A stretch of DNA of 62,812 bases from Candidatus Bathyarchaeum sp. (GTDB lineage: Archaea; Thermoproteota; Bathyarchaeia; Bathyarchaeales; Bathyarchaeaceae), in assembly GCA_020344315.1 (NCBI GenBank), contig CP070820.1:538334-601145 (forward strand), written 5' to 3'. The position numbers and the translations under genes were made by a program. Numbering within the stretch: the stretch's first letter is position 1; the number at the start of each line of letters is the position of its first letter. The notes under the pieces were generated by a model. That model did no database searches. It worked only from the letters and a program-made list of their open reading frames with translations, and was not told the origin of the DNA. Below are positions 19,736 through 47,677 of this stretch, one piece after another.

Positions 19736-20452
19736 TTGAAACTTCTAGTTAGCGTCGTAAACGAAACAGAAGCCTCAGAGAGCATCAAAGGAGGAGCCCA
19801 TATAATTGACGTTAAAAACCCGAAAGAAGGCTCCCTAGGCGCCAACTTTCCCAGAGTAATAAGACAAGTTAAAGGGGCCGTGCGAAGAAACGTTGAAGTA
19901 AGCGCAACAATCGGTGACATGCCAAATCTGCCAGGAACCGCTTCTCTTGCAGCCCTAGGTGCCTGCGTCTCCGGAGCAGATTATGTTAAAGTTGGACTTT
20001 TCGGCGTGAAAACCTCTGAAGAAGCAACGACACTGATGAATGAAGTGTGCAAGGCTGTGAAAGAGTATAACCGCGACTTGAAAACAATTGCTGCAGGCTA
20101 TGCTGACTTCAGGACTGTTGGCTGCGTTAGCCCTCTGGAACTGCCCGCGGTTGCGCATAAGGTAAAAGCTGACGGAGTACTAGTTGATATTAAAGTGAAG
20201 AATGGTAAAAGCAACCTCTTCAATTTTCTAACCGATCAAGAACTAAAAGAAATTGTCGAGAAAGCACACGACAATAATTTGATAGTTGCTCTTGCCGGTT
20301 CTTTAGATAAACAACACATTCGGAGAGTATATGATTTAGCCGCGGATATTATTGGGGTTAGAGGAGCCGTCTGCACCAATAGAGACAGAGTAGCGGGTAG
20401 AGTTCAAAAAGAGAAAGTGATGGAATTCACTAAAGAAATCAGCCTCTTATGA
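19736..20452 (+). CDS. mfnB: (5-formylfuran-3-yl)methyl phosphate synthase MfnB
   Basis: 238 residues, the family's usual size. MfnB condenses two glyceraldehyde-3-phosphates into 4-HFC-P, the first furan precursor of methanofuran. The diagnostic Schiff-base region is GGAHIIDVKNPKEGSLGANF. LLVSVVNETEA at the start and GVLVDIKVKNGKSNLF in the middle also match, the latter with the second conserved lysine. TTG start with GGGTGA ~10 bases upstream. It is convergent with mfnE; their stops are about 9 bases apart. Confidence 0.93.
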   Translation: MKLLVSVVNETEASESIKGGAHIIDVKNPKEGSLGANFPRVIRQVKGAVRRNVEVSATIGDMPNLPGTASLAALGACVSGADYVKVGLFGVKTSEEATTLMNEVCKAVKEYNRDLKTIAAGYADFRTVGCVSPLELPAVAHKVKADGVLVDIKVKNGKSNLFNFLTDQELKEIVEKAHDNNLIVALAGSLDKQHIRRVYDLAADIIGVRGAVCTNRDRVAGRVQKEKVMEFTKEISLL

Positions 20453-20461
20453 AACAAACAG

Positions 20462-21127
20462 CTAAACAGTAACGTGTGTGCAAATGGTTTTCTCGTTTTC
20501 CAGAATATGCCTGATTCTCTCAGGATAGCTGCCGTTAACAACGTAACAATCTGTTTTTGTCTGTAGAAGAATTTTCGACAGGGTTCTGTCAACGCTTGTT
20601 CTCTTGTTCCAACCCAGTAACCTTTTGGCGGGCAACTCCTCAATCAATGCGGCATCCAAATTTTTCTCAGGGTCCTCAGAGAAAATTCCATCCACATCAG
20701 TGACTAGAATCAGCTTCTCAGCCTGCAATAAACCAGCAATGTAAGCGGTTATGGTGTCTGAAGTTACATCCCATGAATGCTCTAAGGGGTCTTCGCGGAA
20801 CATAAACCTCGAAGGCAAAAAAATTGGTAACACACCCCCCGCTGAGTTGCTGATTTTCTCTAAAGAGTAAGAAACGTAGGAATTTGGGGCGATATCAGAC
20901 AATAATAGTCCGTATTGATCCATAGCTAGAATAGCCATTTTGTGAGCAACCATATTTGAGAGACTGAAAGTTTCGTCAAACTTTCTTGTGGTGTCTGCGA
21001 ATTCGCCTCCGCCAGGCACAATAAGCATTCTGTAAGTTTTAGCTAGAACACTTAACTCCTGACATAACCTATCTAGAATGGCGGGGTCCTCGGCTAAGCT
21101 TCCTCCCACCTTCACAACTGCTTCCAT
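20462..21127 (-). CDS. mfnE: [5-(aminomethyl)furan-3-yl]methyl phosphate kinase MfnE
   Basis: 221 residues, amino-acid-kinase fold. MfnE phosphorylates aminomethylfuran phosphate (F1-P) to the diphosphate (F1-PP). Signatures: VVKVGGSLAEDP, VPGGGEFAD, and a later nucleotide-binding LVTDVDGIF. Its ATG lies 16 bases inside the end of mfnF, so mfnF-mfnE are translationally coupled. It is not an aspartokinase or UMP kinase: it lacks their lengths and regulatory domains, and the neighbours support methanofuran. Confidence 0.88.
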   Translation of the reverse strand: MEAVVKVGGSLAEDPAILDRLCQELSVLAKTYRMLIVPGGGEFADTTRKFDETFSLSNMVAHKMAILAMDQYGLLLSDIAPNSYVSYSLEKISNSAGGVLPIFLPSRFMFREDPLEHSWDVTSDTITAYIAGLLQAEKLILVTDVDGIFSEDPEKNLDAALIEELPAKRLLGWNKRTSVDRTLSKILLQTKTDCYVVNGSYPERIRHILENEKTICTHVTV

Positions 21128-22194
21128 CTTACAGGTTTTCCCTCCAAATTACTTGCCACCATAAGAGCCACACCAACCGAGGGCGATACAACAGACGCTT
21201 CAGCACCCAGCATTTCACTCATATCTATTATTTCCTTGAAACCAGCTTTCTCAGCAGCTTTTCTTGCCAGAAAATTTCTGCCAAGCCCAGTAACTACCAC
21301 TGGAATCTTTTCTTGAAGAAGTAGCGGTTGGATTCTTTCATAAACCTGCTTCAAGCCGTCCGTAATTTGCTCCACTTGCCTTTCATAGACAAATTGAGCC
21401 ATACCCATAATTTCTTGTTCATTTAGCATTTCAATGTCTGCGCAAACGACCCGGGCTAACCTTGCCATGGCTTCCCTCTTTGTTTTTCCGCGTCCATCAC
21501 ATGTTTCAGCAGTGTATTCTTCTTCTCCTATATTGTCCAGAAGCAAGTGCACGTCGGCTGACTGAGCGAATAGTTCTGAAGAGAGCCGTACTATTCCTCC
21601 CCGAAGAGGGACACCATCAGTGATTGTAGCAACGTTTGTTCGTAAAGCCCCTGAGTAGACGAGTTCCCCATTCTGAAGCTTTTCCAGATCGGTTCTGCCC
21701 TCAGCAGCAATCTTTCCGTTAATCACTGGAATAATGCTTGTTGTGGTGCTTCCAACATCAACGACAAGGCAGCTTTTAATTATCTGCGAAACCATCCAGC
21801 CCGTTGCAGCCCAATTGGCAGAAGCTACCTTAAGCGGTTCTTTCCGCGCATCCCCCAGTGACAGCAATTCAGCTTCCACGCTAAGAACAAAAATTGGCAC
21901 ACCATTAAAAACACTAGCTGCACAATCTAAAATGTGGTTAACTCCCTCTTTTTTGGTCCAATAGGCGTCTGACAGCTCAGCGGTCATTGTTACTCCAACT
22001 CCATCCAATGAGGTTGAGTCTACCAGCTTTTTTTTCAGCTTTTCCAGAACTTGTGGAAGCTTTTCTTTCCCCATTTTCCAAATAGGAAAATGTTCAATGG
22101 CTGTTCTCTGCTCTTTGATCATACCCTCTTGAGTTTTCAGGAAAGTGGCTTTTGTGTTGACGCCTCCTATGTCTAAGCCAAGAACATTCACCAC
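21112..22194 (-). CDS. mfnF: Methanofuran APMF-Glu synthase MfnF (hydantoinase/oxoprolinase-like)
   Basis: About 360 residues. MfnF joins the furan diphosphate (F1-PP) to gamma-glutamyltyramine to give APMF-Glu. Sugar-kinase/hydantoinase-like ATPase signatures: NVLGLDIGGVNTKAT at the start, CLVVDVGSTTTSIIPV in the middle, and VVTGLGRNFLARKAAEKAGF near the end. The frame opens further to 22266, but GTG 22194 or 22191 begins at the first strand and follows the SD-like GAGGTGA, which is embedded in the end of mfnD. So mfnD, mfnF and mfnE form one tightly packed operon. Confidence 0.9.
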   Translation of the reverse strand: MVNVLGLDIGGVNTKATFLKTQEGMIKEQRTAIEHFPIWKMGKEKLPQVLEKLKKKLVDSTSLDGVGVTMTAELSDAYWTKKEGVNHILDCAASVFNGVPIFVLSVEAELLSLGDARKEPLKVASANWAATGWMVSQIIKSCLVVDVGSTTTSIIPVINGKIAAEGRTDLEKLQNGELVYSGALRTNVATITDGVPLRGGIVRLSSELFAQSADVHLLLDNIGEEEYTAETCDGRGKTKREAMARLARVVCADIEMLNEQEIMGMAQFVYERQVEQITDGLKQVYERIQPLLLQEKIPVVVTGLGRNFLARKAAEKAGFKEIIDMSEMLGAEASVVSPSVGVALMVASNLEGKPVRWKQL

Positions 22195-22195
22195 T

Positions 22196-23413
22196 TCAAT
22201 CACCTCTAACATAGAATGCCAGAAGACGTTTTTTAGCCCTATGAAAGGCTGATTTGGCACCATCAAGGCTGGTTGAGGAGGTTACAAGGAGAGCATAAGC
22301 TGATTCGTTGCCTACGATCGGAAATGGAGGCGAAATGACTTCCCTTAATTTGTAGGTTTCAGCTATAATTTGAGGATGTGAAGGAACCTCTACTTTGGAG
22401 AAGAAGGCATAACCTTGTGTCTGCGCATCTTTTGGAAGCTTATGTCCAAAAACAGCATCAACTATTGCTTGTGCTGGATTGAAATCCGCAGCCCTCCTCA
22501 AACCTATGTAAGATATTGTGAGCCGTGGGTTAACTTCAATCACGACAGGTCCCTCTCTAGCCAATACCATGTCAACACCAACATAACCTCTCAATCCCCT
22601 AATAGATTCAACAACCCTTTGAGCAGTCTTCAAAGCTTCCTCCTCTAAACTATGATCGAAAGGGACAACTCCCCCAGAATATCTGGACTCCTCATCTGGT
22701 GGCGCTAAAGTAACTAACTGCTTGTTTAATGTAACAGACAAGGCTTTATCTCCAGTTGAAATTACGCAGACGCTGGCTCCTTTCCCCCTTATCAACTTTT
22801 GAGCGATAAAATAGTTGCTCAGCGACTCACGCGCCACTTTTTTAACCGCTGCTGCTATGCTACCTTCATCTTTAACGAGGCTTAAGCCAGAACAGCTAAC
22901 TCCGTCTACGGGCTTAAAGACAAGAGGATACCCTAACTCTTTGATTAAACGCCTGATGTTTCCGGTCTTTTCATGGATATCTAGCAGAACTGTTTCTGGA
23001 ACTTTCACTCCTATTCTCTCTAATGTTTCATAGGTTGTCATCTTATTTGAAACCCGTTTTATTGCCTCAACTTGGCAGTTAAGCGATGTTCCTCCAGAAG
23101 ATTCCACAAGTTTCTCCAGCACTTGACCTGACTCTGGAGCAATCACGTAAACGGCATCTACAGCACCTGAAATTTTTCTTAACTTCTCATCCAATTCTTC
23201 AGGTGAGGATACGGAGACTATCTTATCCGCTTCTATGGGTGGGTTAAAGCCAGCGAGTCTTGAATCTAGCAAGGTTGTGACTTGGTGACAAGCGGCTTTG
23301 AAGTCAGCGATTAGACTCCGTAGCATGCCATATCCTTCACTGAGTGTGCTGGCTGAAATCTTCTTATTGATGTATCCGCCTCCAGAGATGTGCTCATAAA
23401 TCAAAAGATTCAA
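22196..23413 (-). CDS. mfnD: Tyramine--L-glutamate ligase MfnD (ATP-grasp)
   Basis: 405 residues, somewhat longer than typical. MfnD links glutamate to tyramine in an ATP-dependent reaction. ATP-grasp pattern: LGYPLVFKPVDGVSCSGLSLV, then FIAQKLIRGKGASVCVI, and the metal-binding VVIEVNPRLTISYIGLRRA. TTG start with the typical opening LLIYEHISGGGY. First gene of a three-gene minus-strand operon. Its start is only 42 bases from that of the divergent hisA/hisF-related gene, so a shared promoter region is implied. Confidence 0.9.
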   Translation of the reverse strand: MNLLIYEHISGGGYINKKISASTLSEGYGMLRSLIADFKAACHQVTTLLDSRLAGFNPPIEADKIVSVSSPEELDEKLRKISGAVDAVYVIAPESGQVLEKLVESSGGTSLNCQVEAIKRVSNKMTTYETLERIGVKVPETVLLDIHEKTGNIRRLIKELGYPLVFKPVDGVSCSGLSLVKDEGSIAAAVKKVARESLSNYFIAQKLIRGKGASVCVISTGDKALSVTLNKQLVTLAPPDEESRYSGGVVPFDHSLEEEALKTAQRVVESIRGLRGYVGVDMVLAREGPVVIEVNPRLTISYIGLRRAADFNPAQAIVDAVFGHKLPKDAQTQGYAFFSKVEVPSHPQIIAETYKLREVISPPFPIVGNESAYALLVTSSTSLDGAKSAFHRAKKRLLAFYVRGD

Positions 23414-23455
23414 ACTTCACCCTCGCAGTATCACCTATGTTATGGGGTAACCATA

Positions 23456-24190
23456 TTGAAGATTATTCCAGTGATTGACGTTTTAAATGGTATTGCTGTC
23501 CATGCTATACGAGGGGAGAGAAAACGGTATCGGCCATTAAGAAGCGTTTTGTGCAAGTCTGCGGACCCCTTGGACATTGCCTTAACTTTTGAGTCCCTAG
23601 GATTCAAGAGTCTATACTTGGCTGATCTGGATTCAATATTAGGAAAGCCAGCGAATTTCGATCTGTACCAGCAGATTATAGCTGAAACTAATCTTGAGTT
23701 AATGGTTGATGCGGGAATAGCTGACATAATCAAAGCCAAGAAAGTGCTTGAAACAGGAGCGACAAAAATTATCATTGGCTCAGAGACTCTGAACAGTTTA
23801 GATTTTTTAAATCAAGTTGCCAAAGCCTTTGGTGAAGACAAGGTCGTGGTAAGCATTGACCTGAAAGAAGGAAAGCTGTTGAGCCTCTCAGAAGCTATCA
23901 AATCAATGGACACTATTTCGTTTGCGCAAAAACTCGCAGACATAGGCATCAGCCAGATTATCGTCTTGGATTTAAGCCGAGTGGGGACTGAGCATGGAAT
24001 CAACTCAGCAATCCTAGAAAACATTCTTGAGAAAACCAGCCTTGAGGTATTCGTTGGCGGTGGAATAACGGGCATCCAAGAACTGGAGGAATTGAGGAAA
24101 CTAGGCGTTTCTGGCGCCTTAATAGCCACTGTCCTGCATAATGGAAAACTCAAAGTTGATGAACTGAAATCCAATAGTTTCTTAGCATAA
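23456..24190 (+). CDS. HisA/HisF-related protein linked to methanofuran genes
   Basis: About 244 residues from TTG 23456 (MKIIPVIDVLNGIAVHAIRG); an upstream frame extension overlaps mfnD and is ignored. TIM-barrel of the HisA type, with DLDSILGKPANFDLY, LMVDAGIADI and VFVGGGITGIQELEEL marking the phosphate-binding strands. Methanogens carry this hisA/hisF-related family (TIGR00734, hisAF_rel) in addition to true HisA. No other his gene is nearby; the cluster is otherwise all methanofuran. A role in cofactor synthesis is inferred from position only. It could be the missing or an accessory furan step. Confidence 0.8.
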   Translation: MKIIPVIDVLNGIAVHAIRGERKRYRPLRSVLCKSADPLDIALTFESLGFKSLYLADLDSILGKPANFDLYQQIIAETNLELMVDAGIADIIKAKKVLETGATKIIIGSETLNSLDFLNQVAKAFGEDKVVVSIDLKEGKLLSLSEAIKSMDTISFAQKLADIGISQIIVLDLSRVGTEHGINSAILENILEKTSLEVFVGGGITGIQELEELRKLGVSGALIATVLHNGKLKVDELKSNSFLA

Positions 24191-24194
24191 GAAA

Positions 24195-25388
24195 GTGAAA
24201 CACATGCCTTCAGAGACAACATCGCACAAAACAAACGAGATGCCGGAGAAGGGCTTGCCCCAAAACATAATTCGTAAAATGCTTGAAGCAAAACTCCAAC
24301 GAGACCTCACCTATTCTTCCGGCAAAATCCTGTGTTCCATGTGTACAAACCCCCACAGCTTCGCCAAACAAATTTACCGGAAGTACCTTGAAAAGAACCT
24401 AGGCGACCCAGGTCTTTTCCCAGCATCCGCAGAACTGGAGCAAGAAACGATTCATATGCTTGGTTCGCTGCTTTCGAATCCCGAAGCCTCAGGAAGTATC
24501 GTTTCTGGTGGAACAGAAGCGAATATAATTGCCCTCTGGATCGCCCGAAATCTCGCCAAGAAGGATTGCGGCGAAGTTATTGTTCCTGTTTCTGCTCATT
24601 ACTCCTTTGACAAGGCATCTGACCTGTTAAATTTAAAGTTGATTAAGGTGAATCTTAACCATCATTTTCAAATGGATGTAAAGGCTGCTGAAAAGGCTAT
24701 TACGCCGAGAACTGTGGCAATTGTTGGTGTGGCAGGCACCACAGGCTTAGGAGTTGTTGATCCCATGCGTGAACTTTCAGAGATCGCCTTGGCACATAAC
24801 ATCTATCTTCATGTAGATGCGGCATTTGGGGGATTTGTGCTTCCTTTCCTTAAGGAGTTAGGCTATAATGCTCTAGATTTTGATTTCAGGTTACCTAGAG
24901 TCTGTTCCATTACAATTGATCCTCATAAGATGGGGTTAGCTCCCATTCCCTCCGGAGGAATACTGTTCAGGAATGCGTCCCTCACTGAAGCTGTCAGCAC
25001 AAGGGTTCCCTACTTGGCTGGAGGAGAGGCGGAACAGTCCACTCTGTTGGGAACGCGTTCAGGTGCTTCCGCAGTAGCCGTTTGGGCGTTGTTGAGGCAT
25101 CTTGGAAGAGCAGGATACAGGGCTGTAGTTGAACACTGCCTTATGCTAACTTGGAAGCTTGTTAAGGAGATTAAGCGGATTGATGGATTAGACATCGTGA
25201 CCGAGCCTACCTTAAATGTGGTTGGAATAAAATCGGACAGAATAGATATTCGGTTGATCTTTCAGGAATTGAGGAAACGTGGTTGGGCGGTTTCCCTCTT
25301 CCCCGGATTCATCAGAATTGTAATAATGCCCCACACTAAACCTTCACACATCAGAAACCTCCTTGAAGACTTGAAAAGAATCCTATAG
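24195..25388 (+). CDS. mfnA: L-tyrosine/L-aspartate decarboxylase MfnA
   Basis: 397 residues from GTG 24195; inner ATGs at 24204 and 24240 are alternatives, and the family usually begins near the last. PLP-dependent group II decarboxylase producing tyramine, which enters methanofuran. PLP site: SITIDPHKMGLAPIPSGG, with the Schiff-base lysine, plus LHVDAAFGGFVLP. The usual SMCTNPH motif near the substrate pocket is present. Four bases separate it from the hisA/hisF-related gene, so they are one operon. Aspartate decarboxylation (to beta-alanine for CoA) is also known in this family. Confidence 0.9.
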   Translation: MKHMPSETTSHKTNEMPEKGLPQNIIRKMLEAKLQRDLTYSSGKILCSMCTNPHSFAKQIYRKYLEKNLGDPGLFPASAELEQETIHMLGSLLSNPEASGSIVSGGTEANIIALWIARNLAKKDCGEVIVPVSAHYSFDKASDLLNLKLIKVNLNHHFQMDVKAAEKAITPRTVAIVGVAGTTGLGVVDPMRELSEIALAHNIYLHVDAAFGGFVLPFLKELGYNALDFDFRLPRVCSITIDPHKMGLAPIPSGGILFRNASLTEAVSTRVPYLAGGEAEQSTLLGTRSGASAVAVWALLRHLGRAGYRAVVEHCLMLTWKLVKEIKRIDGLDIVTEPTLNVVGIKSDRIDIRLIFQELRKRGWAVSLFPGFIRIVIMPHTKPSHIRNLLEDLKRIL

Positions 25389-27977: not shown

Positions 27978-28146
27978 ATTTCCAACACCACAACATAAAT
28001 TCCTGATTTCAACCTTTTAGTTGCTAAGTGCCTATAAGGTTTGGCACACCAAACTTTCTTAGTATTTACAGCGATTTTATGCGCACAACAAAGCTAGCTA
28101 TATGAAACTATTAAAAGTGCCACGGTGCAAAAATACAGGAGATATT

Positions 28147-29007
28147 ATGAAAAATCGACACTTGGCAGGCATACTAATTTGCACAATTGTAATCGTGCTC
28201 AGTGCCGTCACTCTCATTTTGTTAAGCAATAGCCTAGTGAATACTGAACCACCGACTGAACCACCAACCGAGCCACCCACTGAACCACCAACCGAGCCAC
28301 CCACTGAACCACTGCATTACACCTACAATCTCGTCAACATTTATCCTCATGACGAAACTGCTTTCACGCAGGGACTGACCTTTGAAGATGGAGTTTTATA
28401 TGAGAGCACAGGGCTCTACGGGCAATCTACACTGCGCCGCGTAGAACTGGAGACCGGCAACACCCTGCAGAATTATGCACTTCCCAGTCAGTTCTTCGGT
28501 GAAGGAATTACAATTTTCGATGACAAAATTATCCAATTAACTTGGAAGTCAAATAGAGGCTTTGTCTATGAAAAAAACTCTTTCGAGTTATTGCAGGAGT
28601 TCAATTATCCTACTCAAGGATGGGGAATCACACATGATGGCAGTAGGCTAATAATGAGTGATGGAACAGCAACTTTGTATTTTCTAGACCCGGAAACATT
28701 CACTCAAGTTGACCAAATTGCAGTGTATGATCCAGACACAGGACCCGTGGCTAGGCTTAATGAACTTGAATACATTCAAGGAGAAGTGTATGCTAACATC
28801 TGGAAAGAAGAAATAATTGCAGTAATAAATCCTCACACCGGACAGGTTACGGGGTGGATAGACTTGGAGGGTATCCAAGATTTAGAAAATCGAGATACAG
28901 GCGGCGTGCTCAATGGTATTGCGTATGACGAAGAAGAGGATAGGCTCTTCGTAACCGGAAAAAGCTGGTCGCAACTTTTTGAAATTGACTTAATTCCTGT
29001 AGAGTAG
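28147..29007 (+). CDS. Glutaminyl-peptide cyclotransferase-like beta-propeller with PTEP spacer
   Basis: About 286 residues from ATG 28147, preceded by AGGAG at 28137-28141. Signal/anchor helix (~5-28), then a PTEP tandem-repeat spacer (~32-55), then a five-bladed propeller with the pattern of the secreted glutaminyl cyclase 2 family (DETAFTQGLTFEDGVLYEST, GEGITIFDDKIIQLTW, LNELEYIQGEVYANIW, GVLNGIAYDEEEDRLFVTGK). Such enzymes cyclise N-terminal glutamine to pyroglutamate on exported peptides. The spacer DNA is a 24-base unit also found in the PQQ-propeller gene at 34 kb. Confidence 0.8.
   Translation: MKNRHLAGILICTIVIVLSAVTLILLSNSLVNTEPPTEPPTEPPTEPPTEPPTEPLHYTYNLVNIYPHDETAFTQGLTFEDGVLYESTGLYGQSTLRRVELETGNTLQNYALPSQFFGEGITIFDDKIIQLTWKSNRGFVYEKNSFELLQEFNYPTQGWGITHDGSRLIMSDGTATLYFLDPETFTQVDQIAVYDPDTGPVARLNELEYIQGEVYANIWKEEIIAVINPHTGQVTGWIDLEGIQDLENRDTGGVLNGIAYDEEEDRLFVTGKSWSQLFEIDLIPVE
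28255..28310 (+). repeat. 24-base tandem repeat coding PTEPPTEP
   Basis: Two exact 24-base units (28261-28284 and 28285-28308) encode (PPTE)n. The same 24-mer occurs, on the opposite strand, three times at 34414-34485 in an unrelated gene. Confidence 0.8.
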
Positions 29008-41808: not shown

Positions 41809-43296
41809 ATGCTCGAACAGTTAAAAGAAGCCTGCGGAGTCTTCGGAGCACAAGACTTCAAAAACAGATCCGTATTCCCCTACCTCTACTGGGGCCTAAG
41901 AGGCCAGAATCATCGCGGCCACCAATCCCACGGCTTCCTCACCTATGACGGAACCTTCCACAGCCACAAAGGACTAGACCTAGTTCCCAAAATAAGAAAA
42001 GAAGAAATCCAAGAGTGGCTTAAAAAACTCCCCGGACCCGTCGGTCTAGGACACGTAAGATACACCACCTCTGGCGGAACAGACTACCAATCACTAGTAA
42101 AAAGCACCCAACCAATCATAGAAAAATACGGAGACCAAAAAATCGCAATCGCATTCAACGGCAACATCGTCAACACCCCAGAAATAATAAAAGAAATCAG
42201 AGAAGAATACCCAAACTTCCGATTCAACTACGACGCAGAACTAATCTCCAGAAAACTATTGAGACTAGGAAAAAAAGGCAACCTAGCTTCATCCGTCAAA
42301 AGATGCATGAAAGAAATCGAAGGCGCCTTCTCCGTAGCTGGAATGACAGAAAAAGGAGAACTCTTCGCCTTCAAAGACCCCCGCGGAATAAGACCCCTCT
42401 GCTGTGGCTGCAGCAGAGACCGAAAAACCTGCGTAGTCTCCTCAGAAACCGTGGGTCTAGACATAAACGATTTCCAACTCGATTTTGAAATAAACCCCGG
42501 AGAACTTGTAACCGCCTCAAAAGACGGATTTAACCGGGAACAACTGGTGAATGGAGAAAAAAGGGCACTATGCGCCTTCGAATTCGCCTACTTTGCCAGA
42601 CCCGACTCAAAACTAGGAGACAAATACGTTTACGAAGTCCGAGAAGAATTCGGAAGAAACTTCGCATGGGAATACCCAGAAACAACCAGCAAAGTAGATA
42701 TAATCATATCCATGCCCGAAACAGGCAACGACTCCGCCTTCGGATTCCATGAACTAACACGTATAAGATGGGAAAGAGCCTCCAGAAGACACAGATACGT
42801 AGCAGAAAGAGCCTTTATCCTGCTGCCAGAAGAACGATACTCAACAATAGACCGAAAAATCAACATCGTCGACCACAAACTGGTAGGAAAAAACGTTGCA
42901 GTGGTAGATGACAGCATCGTCAGAGGCGACACCACCAAAGTCGTAGTGAAGAAACTACGCGAAATGGGCGCAAAAAAAGTCTACCTCTTCATCACCTTCC
43001 CCCGCATAATAGGCCCATGCTTCTACGGAGTAGACATGTCAACCTACCGAGAACTGATAGGATCACGATACGACCCAGAAGAGATAGCAGAAATAGTGGG
43101 CGCCGACGCAGTAAACTACCAATCAGTAGAAGGGCTTGTTAAAGCCACTGGTCTAAGCAAGGACGAACTGTGCTTAGGCTGTATCACGGGCAAATATCCC
43201 ACGCCCATGGCACAGAGACTGGCAGAAGAAATGAAGGAAAGATTTGAGAACGGCTACAAAGAGAAAGGGAGAATATACGAGACTGCCATCAACTAA
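41809..43296 (+). CDS. purF: Amidophosphoribosyltransferase
   Basis: 495 residues. First step of purine synthesis: PRPP plus glutamine to phosphoribosylamine. The N-terminal catalytic Cys is in EACGVFGAQD (residue 9), so a short propeptide must be removed to expose it. The PRPP loop is VAVVDDSIVRGDTTK. Cys-containing GPCFYGVDM and LCLGCITGKYPTP match the [4Fe-4S] ligand pattern of clostridial/Bacillus-type enzymes. The coding strand is A+C-rich, unlike purD downstream. Probably leaderless; purD follows 28 bases later. Confidence 0.93.
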   Translation: MLEQLKEACGVFGAQDFKNRSVFPYLYWGLRGQNHRGHQSHGFLTYDGTFHSHKGLDLVPKIRKEEIQEWLKKLPGPVGLGHVRYTTSGGTDYQSLVKSTQPIIEKYGDQKIAIAFNGNIVNTPEIIKEIREEYPNFRFNYDAELISRKLLRLGKKGNLASSVKRCMKEIEGAFSVAGMTEKGELFAFKDPRGIRPLCCGCSRDRKTCVVSSETVGLDINDFQLDFEINPGELVTASKDGFNREQLVNGEKRALCAFEFAYFARPDSKLGDKYVYEVREEFGRNFAWEYPETTSKVDIIISMPETGNDSAFGFHELTRIRWERASRRHRYVAERAFILLPEERYSTIDRKINIVDHKLVGKNVAVVDDSIVRGDTTKVVVKKLREMGAKKVYLFITFPRIIGPCFYGVDMSTYRELIGSRYDPEEIAEIVGADAVNYQSVEGLVKATGLSKDELCLGCITGKYPTPMAQRLAEEMKERFENGYKEKGRIYETAIN

Positions 43297-43323
43297 CTCC
43301 AAACCAGAAAATCTGATTTCAGT

Positions 43324-44748
43324 ATGGTAGTGATCTGGATGGAAAGAGTCGGCATCCTAGTAGTTTCGTATGGTTCAAGAGCAGCCGCGATAATAGATGC
43401 CTTCGTTCGCAGCGAAGAATACGCCACAGAAATCTACGTTGTCGACAAACAGAAGAACCCCTTCAACGTGAAAACAGCTAAGAGACACGCTGTAATTTCC
43501 GACTTCAACCTAAAGGAAATTCTCAGGTTCGCCAAAAGACACGAAGAGAGAATAGACTTCGGAATAGTTGGCCCTGAAAAACCAATCATTGCCGGCGTAC
43601 GAGACCTTATCGAAAAAGAAACCCGCATACGGATAATCTGCCCCACCAAAAGATACGCCATCGAAGGCAGCAAAGTGGCTCAACGGCAACTGTTCCAGAA
43701 GGTTGCCCCAGAAGTAAACCCGAAATTCAAGGTCTTCGACCCGAAAGATTATGGCAGCGTTGGGCAGGTTAAAAAAAGTGTCTACGCTTGGCTGAAAGAA
43801 CTTAACAACAAGGTAGCGGTGAAACCTGACAGAGCAACTGCAGGAAAGGGCGTCGGAGTCTGGGGTGACCACCTCAACACTCCCGAAGAGGTCTTCGAGC
43901 ATTTTCTCTCCAACTATGAGCATGGTCCAGTGATAATCGAGGAGAAGGTTCAGGGCGAAGAATCCAGCTTCCAAACATTCTGCGACGGAAAACGCTTGAT
44001 TCCTCTGCCTGAAACCCGAGACTACAAACGAGCCTTCGATAATGATAAAGGACCCAACACAGGAGGGATGGGCTCCTACAAAGACGCTGCTGACATACTG
44101 CCGTTCATGAATTCAAGGGACCGGGAGAAGGAAATCGAACTCATCAACAAGGTTTTCAGAGAGTTGAAAGGAAAAGGAAGCAATCCCGAGTTACGAGGCA
44201 TCCCCTTCTACGCCGCCTTCATCCACACAGACAAAGGACCAAAAATCCTAGAGAATAACAGTCGACCAGGAGACCCGGAAATAATGAACCTGATGCCCAT
44301 CCTGAAAGACGACTTCGTTGAGGTTTGCTACAACATGTTGGACGGAAACCTGAGAAAGGTCAACTTTAGAAAAGAGGCAACAGTTGTGACCTACAAGGTT
44401 CCACCTAACTACGGGGGCTACGCAACCGTCTTTCCTGAACGAGTAGACAAGGCTGAAGTGGATACCGCCGTGGATCTAACTAGAGCACAAAAACTGGTTA
44501 AAGAACGTGGAGACAGTATCAGGGTCTATCCTGGCTCCATGGAGTTGAGAGCTGGAGAAAATTATGCCCTTGGATCTCGAACTGTCTGTATTGTCGGTAT
44601 AGGAGAGGATATTCAAGAGGCGAGGGAATCCTCGTTAGAGGGTATAGGCGCGATTAAGGGCGGGGCTCTCTGGCACAGAAATGATATCGCAGCAAAGGAG
44701 CATATAGAGAAAAGCGTGAGGCACATGAAAAAGTTGAGGAGGCGCTGA
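43324..44748 (+). CDS. purD: Phosphoribosylamine--glycine ligase
   Basis: 474 residues, ATP-grasp enzyme adding glycine to phosphoribosylamine. Signatures: KPDRATAGKGVGVWGDHL (ATP loop), GPVIIEEKVQGEESSFQTFC, GGMGSYKDA, and LENNSRPGDPEIMNLMPIL (metal-binding). ATG 43324 or 43339 are both possible starts. Its stop overlaps the ATG of the next gene (TGATG), so translation is coupled to the HAD gene and likely to ftr. Confidence 0.92.
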   Translation: MVVIWMERVGILVVSYGSRAAAIIDAFVRSEEYATEIYVVDKQKNPFNVKTAKRHAVISDFNLKEILRFAKRHEERIDFGIVGPEKPIIAGVRDLIEKETRIRIICPTKRYAIEGSKVAQRQLFQKVAPEVNPKFKVFDPKDYGSVGQVKKSVYAWLKELNNKVAVKPDRATAGKGVGVWGDHLNTPEEVFEHFLSNYEHGPVIIEEKVQGEESSFQTFCDGKRLIPLPETRDYKRAFDNDKGPNTGGMGSYKDAADILPFMNSRDREKEIELINKVFRELKGKGSNPELRGIPFYAAFIHTDKGPKILENNSRPGDPEIMNLMPILKDDFVEVCYNMLDGNLRKVNFRKEATVVTYKVPPNYGGYATVFPERVDKAEVDTAVDLTRAQKLVKERGDSIRVYPGSMELRAGENYALGSRTVCIVGIGEDIQEARESSLEGIGAIKGGALWHRNDIAAKEHIEKSVRHMKKLRRR

Positions 44749-45854
44749 TGCCAGCAGAAGCGTCGCAACAGAATCCTAGAATATTCGTTACCGACTGTGA
44801 GGGACCTATTTCAAAGAACGACAACGCCTTCGAGTTGACAAGCAACTTTGTACCCGAGGGAGACCACTTCTTTGCCCTGATTAGTAAGTATGATGATATT
44901 CTCGCGGATGTGGTCAAAAAGCCCGGATACAAGGCTGGGGACACTCTGCGGCTGATACTGCCTTTCTTGAGGGCTTACGGAGCAACCAACAAGAAGATAA
45001 AAGAATATTCTTCCAACAACATCTTATTGGTTTCTGGTGCACGAGACACACTCCAATTTGTCAATAGGCTCATGCCCTCCTTCATCGTCAGCACCAGCTA
45101 CGAACAGTATATTTCTTCCTTGTGCCAGCTAACAGGTTTCCTATATAGCAACACCTACTGCACCCGCCTAAACATGGACAAATACGAGATAGACGAAGAA
45201 GAGACGAAGAGGCTACAAGAACTTAAAAGGGAGATGTTGATGCTGCCATTGATTGAAATCCCTAAAAACGCTCAGTCTGTCAACGATTTTACCCAGAGAG
45301 ACCAAGAAACTATACAACGGTTAGATGAGATTTTCTGGGAAGAAATTAGTGGAATGGAATCGGGCATGATGCTTCGGGAGGTTAATCCTGTTGGCGGGTC
45401 AGAGAAGGCAAAGGCTGTGCAGGATATTGTTGAAAAGCTGGAGGCAGGTCTTGAGAGGGTGATGTATGTGGGTGACAGCATAACTGATGTTCAGCCCTTA
45501 AGGTTGGTGAGAGAAAACGGGGGATTAGCTGTCTCTTTCAATGGGAATGATTATTCAGTTCGAGAGTCGGAGATTGCTGTGCTCTCAGGCAACACCACTG
45601 TAACATCAGTTCTCGCAGAAACCTTCAGCAGATTAGGCAAAAATCAGGTATTACAGTTGGTTGAAGAGTGGAGTCCCTCAGGACTGAAAAAATATTGTGC
45701 GTCTCCAGCACTGCGAGAACGAATGTTAGGTTTGTATCCTAAGGTCTTTCCCCAAGTTGAGAAGATAACTGATGACAACAGGGAGAGAATTAAGAGGGAG
45801 AGCAGCGTCTTCAGGAAGACAGTGAGGGGAGAGGCTATAGGAAAGTTAGGATAA
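44748..45854 (+). CDS. HAD-superfamily phosphatase-like protein between purD and ftr
   Basis: 368 residues. HAD motif I reads FVTDCEGPISKND, so the nucleophile would be D16, with Glu at the usual second Asp position. YVGDSITDVQPLR near residue 241 provides the acidic motif. The long helical cap region is not recognised. It resembles the methanogen HAD-like proteins labelled EhaR, though I am unsure of that. Start overlaps purD by one base; ftr follows 18 bases after it. Position suggests a dephosphorylation step in C1 or methanopterin metabolism; that is inference. Confidence 0.7.
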   Translation: MPAEASQQNPRIFVTDCEGPISKNDNAFELTSNFVPEGDHFFALISKYDDILADVVKKPGYKAGDTLRLILPFLRAYGATNKKIKEYSSNNILLVSGARDTLQFVNRLMPSFIVSTSYEQYISSLCQLTGFLYSNTYCTRLNMDKYEIDEEETKRLQELKREMLMLPLIEIPKNAQSVNDFTQRDQETIQRLDEIFWEEISGMESGMMLREVNPVGGSEKAKAVQDIVEKLEAGLERVMYVGDSITDVQPLRLVRENGGLAVSFNGNDYSVRESEIAVLSGNTTVTSVLAETFSRLGKNQVLQLVEEWSPSGLKKYCASPALRERMLGLYPKVFPQVEKITDDNRERIKRESSVFRKTVRGEAIGKLG

Positions 45855-45872
45855 ACATATGACCGTGATTCA

Positions 45873-46778
45873 ATGAAGGCTAGAATAGAAGACACCTATG
45901 CTGAAGCTTTCGACGGATTATATTCCAGAGTCATCGTCACCGCAGACCATCAAGAAGTGCTGGAGAGAGCTGCAGAAGACGCCACAGCCACACCCTCCAT
46001 AGTCATCGGCAGAACTGAAGGCGGCATCGAAAAATGGCTGGACAAACAGGAAACCCCAGATGGACGCAAGGGCGCCATTCTACAGTTCTGGGGAGGAATC
46101 GACGAAAGCAAGCCTCTGGAAGAATCAGTGAAAAAGTTTGAGAAAGAACTCTCATACCGGATACGGCAGGACATCCTCGTGAAGCCTTTCACTGCTCTCT
46201 TTGATGCCTTGCCGAAGCCGGGTGGCAAGATAGGCATGATGGAACGTGTGGGTCATTGCGGAGATGGGTTTGAATGGGAAGAGAAACGTTACGGACGGAA
46301 CATGATTGTTATCCCATTGATGGTTTCTAACTTTTTGATAGAACGTGAATTGGGTTATGCTTGGGGAGTGATGGGAGCCAACTTCTGGTTCATGTGCAGA
46401 ACCAAGCAGGCAGTCATGGAAGCGGGGAGAAAAGCGTTGGATGCCATACATCAGGTTCCGGGCGTCATAACACCTTTCGATGTGTGTTCAGCCGGTTCAA
46501 AACCCGAAACGAAATTTCCGTCGATTGGTCCTACCACTAATCATCCATACTGTTCAACGTTGAAGGAAAGGTTAGGCGAGGAGTCGAAGGTTCCGGAAGA
46601 TGTGCATTATATTCCGGAGATTGTAATCAACGGTTCCTCCATTGAAGCTGTGAAGGAAGCAATGCGAGTTGGTATCGAAAGTGCCTGCAACGTGGATGGA
46701 GTCGTTAAAATCTCTGCGGGAAATTATGGAGGAAAACTTGGACGACACAGAATATACCTGCAGGAGCTGTTTCCATGA
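45873..46778 (+). CDS. ftr: Formylmethanofuran--tetrahydromethanopterin formyltransferase
   Basis: 301 residues, the family's usual length (about 297). It transfers the formyl group from formylmethanofuran to H4MPT in the archaeal Wood-Ljungdahl methyl branch. Diagnostic segments: [20 protein letters not shown] at the start, [12 protein letters not shown], and [19 protein letters not shown] followed by [17 protein letters not shown] near the end. It lies in a purine operon, overlaps the PfkB gene by four bases, and needs methanofuran, which the cluster at 19.7-25.4 kb can provide. Confidence 0.93.
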
Positions 46779-47677
46779 CCTTCCATGTCGTAGGCTTAGG
46801 CGCCCTCAACCTAGACAAACTTTTCAAAGTGAACATGATTGCCCGAGAAGAGGAAGAAGGCTTCATAACAGAACTCAAAGAATCTGCAGGTGGCTCAGCA
46901 GCCAACACCACTGTGGGCTTGGCTAGGCTAGAGCTGAAAACCGGTTTCATAGGGAAGGTTGCTGCAGACCATGAGGGTAACTTTCTCCTTGACGATTTCA
47001 GAACAGAAGGGGTTGACACCAATGGCATAACAGTCTCGGAGAAGGGCAGAAGCGGCGTTGTCATGGGATTCATTGACCCAAAGGGAGATAGAGCATTATA
47101 CGTTGACCCCGGAGTCAACAACCTGATAGAATTCAAAGACATCGACTTAAGTTACGCTGCTAACACCGATTTTCTGCATCTGTCATCGTTTGTTGAAGAA
47201 AAACCCTTCAAAGCCCAAAAAGAACTCATAGATCAGCTTTCCAATGTCAAGATAAGTTTTGATCCCGGGGCACTCTACGCAAGAAAAGGCTTGGAGTCTC
47301 TGAAGCCGATAATCAGAAGGTGCCATGTCATTTTCCCCAACGCCATAGAAACGAAGCTGCTCACAGGACAGGACTATGAGGAAGGCGCCAAAATCTTATC
47401 AGAAGAGGGCGTGAGCATAGCTGCGGTTAAGCTTGGCAAGAAGGGCTGCTACGTCACTAACGGAAAGGAGAGCCACCTTATTGAGCCCTACAACGTGGAG
47501 GTAGTGGACACAACTGGTGCCGGAGACGCCTTCTGCGCCGGCTTTCTCTACGGCTTAATCAAGGGAAGAGACCTTTACGAGTGCGGAAGACTGGGAAACT
47601 TTGTTGCATCCCGCTGCATAGCAAAGATGGGCGCCAGAACCGGATTGCCCAGACTTGAAGACCTAAAAGACCTTTAG
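46775..47677 (+). CDS. PfkB-family (ribokinase-like) kinase downstream of ftr
   Basis: 300 residues, ATG start overlapping the ftr stop by four bases. PfkB signatures: N-terminal [11 protein letters not shown] and [20 protein letters not shown], and the catalytic [17 protein letters not shown] near the C-terminus. It phosphorylates a sugar or nucleoside-like alcohol; substrate not readable. Translational coupling to ftr suggests a C1-cofactor or purine link, for example a ribosyl-phosphate step. Convergent with purQ; the stops overlap by four bases. Confidence 0.85.

Follow-up and report, generated by a model that had tools for sequence, protein, structure and literature searches.

Does an archaeon without methyl-coenzyme M reductase (Mcr) make its own methanofuran, the carrier that holds carbon during uptake from CO2, and if so, what does a relative of the histidine genes hisA and hisF do among the genes responsible? 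This question is raised by positions 19736-25388 of a 62,812-nucleotide stretch of Candidatus Bathyarchaeum sp. (contig CP070820.1, positions 538,334 to 601,145; hereafter the window), which carry homologs of the methanofuran biosynthesis genes mfnB, mfnE, mfnF, mfnD and mfnA together with a hisA/hisF-like gene, here called orf17. The source genome is a single 1.557 Mb contig rated 88% complete. The organism is closely related to Ca. Bathyarchaeum tardum and belongs to the genus Bathyarchaeum or its counterpart in the genome taxonomy; the nearest named relatives of its MfnB, at 71% identity, come from that species and from Bathyarchaeota isolate M17C-01. The analysis itself observed which genes are present, their conserved clustering and co-occurrence, the fold and the conserved residues; the reactions of the Mfn enzymes and the methylofuran-minus phenotype of a bacterial orf17 mutant are taken from the literature.

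Gene content and conservation of the mfn cluster

An earlier note, made from the letters of the window, had claimed the presence of all five mfn genes, arranged as one minus-strand operon and two plus-strand units with a hisA/hisF-related gene inside the cluster. Profile searches bore this out, coordinates and strands included. The product of mfnB (19736-20452, plus strand), a predicted (5-formylfuran-3-yl)methyl phosphate (4-HFC-P) synthase, matched the Pfam family 4HFCP_synth at 260 bits (cut-off 22.4) and aligned from end to end with MJ1099 of Methanocaldococcus jannaschii, the structure of which is solved (4rc1, 4u9p); against 4rc1, the VKNPKEGSLGANFP and SGADYxKVG stretches are kept, and D25, K27 and the lysine of SGADYxKVG align. 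The minus-strand operon mfnD-mfnF-mfnE spans 23413 to 20462, and its genes overlap slightly. Its first gene, mfnD (22196-23413), encodes a putative tyramine--L-glutamate ligase of the ATP-grasp type (best family MfnD, 129 bits, cut-off 400; ATP-grasp_3, E 3.5e-38). The second, mfnF (21112-22266), encodes a hydantoinase_A-like protein predicted to condense [5-(aminomethyl)furan-3-yl]methyl diphosphate (F1-PP) with glutamyltyramine (TIGR03123, 348.5 bits, cut-off 244); its homology extends from about 22182 onward, and the true start is therefore internal to the open reading frame. The third, mfnE (20462-21127), overlaps mfnF by 16 bases and encodes a putative kinase of the corresponding monophosphate (F1-P) with an amino acid kinase fold (best NCBIfam family MfnE, 179 bits, cut-off 300). 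On the plus strand, orf17 lies in an open reading frame at 23390-24190 and encodes a protein of the HisA/HisF fold (TIGR00734, 181.3 bits, cut-off 179.85). Its start is likelier the TTG at 23456 than 23390, which leaves about 40 bases to the start of the divergent mfnD, and it ends 4 bases before mfnA (24195-25388, plus strand), which encodes a putative pyridoxal phosphate-dependent tyrosine decarboxylase (TIGR03812, 482 bits, cut-off 299). All six genes are open and full length.

For every protein of the cluster, the top-scoring family was the expected Mfn family, with MfnA, MfnF (TIGR03123) and Orf17 (TIGR00734) above the curated cut-offs, and the same genes are grouped together in dozens of other archaea; chance or misassignment is thus very unlikely. 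The clustering is kept in Bathyarchaeia, Nitrososphaeria and one bacterium, Dethiosulfatarculus. The gene order in Dethiosulfatarculus sandiegensis, mfnB+ mfnE- mfnF- mfnD- orf17+, is identical to that of the window; the arrangement may be old or may have passed between domains. The window encodes, side by side, five of the six enzymes of the M. jannaschii MfnA-MfnF pathway and differs from that pathway in forming one compact cluster with Orf17, in belonging to an mcr-less archaeon and in leaving mfnC unlinked. Furthermore, the 'archaeal-like' tetrahydromethanopterin (H4MPT)/methylofuran cluster of Methylorubrum extorquens (orf22, orf21, orf9, orf17; PMC8141765) likewise brings together homologs of MfnB, MfnE, MfnF and Orf17, whereas the MfnA and MfnD of the window (tyramine type) have no homolog in M. 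extorquens (PMC8141765).

The hisA/hisF-like gene of the window is a homolog of Orf17, the protein whose deletion in Methylorubrum abolishes methylofuran and its late intermediates while dephospho-H4MPT (dH4MPT) is still made (PMC8141765). In a sample of 161 genomes from the phylum, the best matches to TIGR00734 fell into two groups, one of at least 117 bits (Orf17) and one of at most 98 bits (HisA; the HisA of the window's genome scores 73 bits). Orf17 was present in 23 of the 24 genomes with MfnB, counting one (G103) in which it is split over two contig ends, and in 0 of the 137 without. Since Orf17 tracks mfnB in this manner while many genomes that carry mptG, the gene for beta-ribofuranosylaminobenzene 5'-phosphate (beta-RFAP) synthase, have no Orf17, it follows methanofuran and not H4MPT. 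Among 80 named mfnB loci, Orf17 was in reach at 54, and at 42 of these it stood head-to-head with mfnB within 400 bp. The pairing of mfnB and Orf17 extends to loci of Methanosarcinales-type methanogens, near which no mfnD, mfnE or mfnF was seen.

Several observations weigh against a functional cluster that includes Orf17. MfnB, MfnE, MfnD and a second MfnF model score below the NCBIfam equivalog cut-offs, and mptG was not found in the 88% complete genome, which gave no TIGR00144 match. The co-occurrence of Orf17 and MfnB (Fisher p 6e-27) is uncorrected for kinship; one genome (G019) has mfnB, mfnE and mfnF and no Orf17 match anywhere, and two more (G178 and G166) have no Orf17 beside mfnB. Moreover, the archaeal core with its first glutamate is reported to need no enzymes beyond MfnA-F (PMC8141765), so that no known step demands Orf17. 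Weighing these points against the family assignments, the conserved grouping and the co-occurrence, we put at about 0.85 the joint probability that this Bathyarchaeum-genus archaeon has a functional methanofuran biosynthesis cluster here and that Orf17 is a further core protein of the pathway. The three genomes G019, G178 and G166, all with mfnB, belong to one family (f7), in which a substitute for Orf17 might be sought.

In the proposed pathway, MfnB would convert two molecules of glyceraldehyde-3-phosphate to the furan phosphate, an unlinked aminotransferase would carry out the MfnC step, MfnE would make the diphosphate, MfnA and MfnD would make glutamyltyramine, and MfnF would join the furan and glutamyltyramine halves. 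That only mfnC is absent, as the earlier note had it, is true for the cluster and at the same time uninformative: no relative has mfnC there, and none of the 80 named loci has an aminotransferase gene close to mfnB. Four full class I/II aminotransferases are encoded elsewhere in the genome. One of them, an alanine aminotransferase (PRK08363, 585 bits, cut-off 534), might at a guess be MfnC; the three remaining ones resemble shikimate-context, cobalamin (CobD-like) and histidine genes.

Fold and possible role of Orf17

The AlphaFold model of Orf17 (pLDDT, the predicted local distance difference test, 96.3) has HisA/PriA and HisF as its nearest solved folds, with template modeling (TM) scores of 0.77-0.86. 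Orf17 has in common with HisA/HisF (PF00977) the (beta-alpha)8 fold and both catalytic aspartates, which correspond to D10 and D137 and were invariant in an alignment of 53 members (53/53). E112 (53/53), the HisF-like H230, and R24 and Y27 in loop 1 were invariant as well, and D87 was conserved in 52/53. Orf17 departs from HisA/HisF, however, in its N-terminal phosphate site, where D87 and E112 replace Gly and Ala, in a longer loop 1 bearing R24 and Y27, and in having VG(S/T) instead of DGT; the C-terminal GGG stretch is retained. These differences, together with the mfn context and the separate hisA and hisF that the genome has elsewhere, led us to reject Orf17 as a true HisA or HisF acting in histidine synthesis.

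The two acidic residues at the N-terminal site and the retained C-terminal GGG suggest a substrate with a single phosphate whose opposite end carries a group that two carboxylates could hold. F1-P would match this description, having its phosphate and its amine at opposite ends; an acyclic compound that leads to 4-HFC-P might also serve. This substrate profile and the pairing with mfnB point to a place for Orf17 in the furan branch beside MfnB, an assignment that we regard as an even bet, and there the HisA/HisF aspartate pair would act as acid-base catalysts on a monophosphate precursor. A role on the tyramine/glutamate side, or as a non-catalytic partner of MfnB, would agree with the position of the window's orf17 4 bases upstream of mfnA, with which it is probably co-transcribed, and with the furan branch of M. 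jannaschii, which is not known to lack a step; however, the constant neighbor in other genomes is mfnB and not mfnA, M. extorquens needs orf17 yet has no mfnA or mfnD homolog (PMC8141765), and the invariance of the catalytic aspartates speaks against a non-catalytic function. We consider such a role less likely than one as an enzyme of the furan branch.

The methyl branch and a second formyltransferase gene

The product of the cluster would feed the methyl branch of Fwd, Ftr, Mch, Mtd and Mer. A profile search of the whole genome for mcrA found none, while the control search was positive in both methanogens, in agreement with the earlier note, in which no mcr gene was visible. In contrast, fwd, ftr, mch, mtd and mer were all found on the same 1.557 Mb contig, seven of eight above the curated cut-offs: FwdB (568 bits), FwdA (814 bits), FwdC (271 bits), Mch (412 bits), Mtd (376 bits), Mer (447 bits, genome position 31.6 kb) and Ftr (TIGR03119, 393 bits, about 280.4-281.3 kb of the genome, outside the window). 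The eighth, FwdD (99 bits), is below its exception-model cut-off. FwdD, FwdB, FwdA, FwdC and Mch form one gene run at about 302.4-307.8 kb, with Mtd just upstream. Thus, gene content supports a methanofuran/H4MPT methyl branch in a genome without mcrA, as the earlier note had proposed with acetogenesis or carbon fixation in mind, and the genes alone do not tell acetogenesis from oxidation. For Bathyarchaeum tardum, the archaeal Wood-Ljungdahl pathway has already been published in full, methanofuran and H4MPT included and McrA lacking (PMC10477458), and the physiology predicted here is therefore not new. Ca. Bathyarchaeum tardum is of the same genus and has a 71% identical MfnB, no mcrA, and methanofuran and H4MPT as carriers; it differs from the window in that no mfnA was seen within 10 kb of mfnB, and otherwise nothing essential differs.

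Could the cluster be a remnant, kept after loss of the methyl branch or repurposed for another furan compound? Remnant H4MPT/methanofuran biosynthesis genes are on record for archaea in which the pathway was lost (PMC9635834), and the missing mptG would point the same way. However, the FwdDBAC-Mch operon, Ftr, Mtd and Mer stand on the same contig, most of them above curated cut-offs, the six cluster genes are intact, and mptG is present in three congeners (TIGR00144, 212-218 bits), a finding to be set beside the incompleteness of the window's genome; a remnant is, on this evidence, very improbable. The older proposal for MJ0703, that Orf17 serves in making H4MPT rather than methanofuran, for example in opening a ribofuranosyl ring, can draw on the ribosyl-amine substrates of HisA-type chemistry and on the usual co-occurrence of the two cofactors, but is barely tenable given that Orf17 occurs almost only with mfnB and clusters with mfn genes, and that the bacterium without orf17 continues to make dH4MPT (PMC8141765).

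The earlier note had also counted an ftr gene in the window as support for the methanofuran/H4MPT branch. This does not hold. The gene, FTR2 (45873-46778, plus strand), encodes a paralog of formylmethanofuran:H4MPT formyltransferase that scores below the TIGR03119 cut-off (248 bits, cut-off 293) and lies in a purine operon, purF-purD-HAD-FTR2-PfkB (41809-47677), and the pathway Ftr is the one encoded outside the window. We compared the FTR2 locus in 12 Bathyarchaeia genomes, of which the 11 besides the window's span eight families. In all of them purD and then a gene for a haloacid dehalogenase (HAD)-like protein lie upstream of FTR2, and a PfkB kinase gene adjoins it or is nearby; the HAD-like gene (44748-45854 in the window) stands between purD and FTR2 in 12/12 loci. 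The FTR2 proteins form one branch with 100/100 support, a second and divergent FTR clade. The window's FTR2 keeps a 10-residue stretch and the counterpart of Glu245 in the solved structure 1ftr, a residue that we take to be catalytic. PurT reached its cut-off in none of 61 genomes of the class, and none of the 13 closest genomes had a match to PF00551 (PurN). Some genomes without FTR2 have another candidate, such as G136, with no FTR and a PurT-like gene; G027 and G043 each combine one FTR with a match to PF00551. Glycinamide ribonucleotide (GAR) formyltransferase was not identifiable in several H4MPT-using archaea, and formyl-H4MPT as the donor has been doubted (reviewed in PMC3261824). From its sequence and genomic context, FTR2 is reasonably taken as a candidate for this missing enzyme. 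The second FTR of Methanothermobacter, considered as a parallel, was rejected, as it has been reassigned to EhaT (PMC3087415). Elsewhere in the window, positions 28102-29007 encode a glutamine cyclotransferase (PF05096, 318 bits) that contains a linker of PPTE repeats and is apparently exported.

Methanofuran genes across the Bathyarchaeia

In a sample of 121 Bathyarchaeia genomes, FwdA was found above its cut-off in 80, MfnB in 32 and MfnF in 32, with 31 genomes having both MfnB and MfnF. Both proteins were absent from 50 of the 80 FwdA genomes, and 28 of these 50 are at least 90% complete and 19 at least 95%. The FwdDBAC-Mch block of the window's genome recurs in G059, G001 and G142. Of the 37 FTR genomes in the phylum sample, 15 lacked a full MfnB, including one (G048) with broken MfnB pieces only. 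In the latter, mfnB pieces with stop codons lie at 11244-11779 of contig C66 and FTR is intact; a recent loss of methanofuran synthesis is possible. Missed detection through divergence alone is unlikely to account for the absence of MfnB from relatives, as MfnF, and Orf17 where searched, are missing too.

The window's lineage is a predicted methanofuran maker in a class in which most Fwd carriers are not recognizable makers. We tentatively suggest, at less than even confidence, that only a minority of the Bathyarchaeia lineages bearing Fwd, Ftr and Mch synthesize methanofuran de novo, and that the others import methanofuran, make it by a route yet to be described or use another formyl carrier. 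One option within this reading is that lineages such as that of the window would act as methanofuran donors to their neighbors. A non-homologous synthesis route in the mfn-less carriers could likewise apply. Among open-license papers, we found no published statement of an mfn-less majority of Fwd-bearing Bathyarchaeia.

Together, these observations supply one more clear instance of a pathway that the genus Bathyarchaeum was already known to have. Moreover, Orf17 accompanies methanofuran synthesis in archaea and bacteria alike, and its conserved residues show where to seek its reaction. Finally, published reconstructions take the first step of the carbon pathway of Bathyarchaeia for granted, and the finding that most Fwd-bearing members lack MfnB and MfnF calls into question how this abundant sediment group runs that step.

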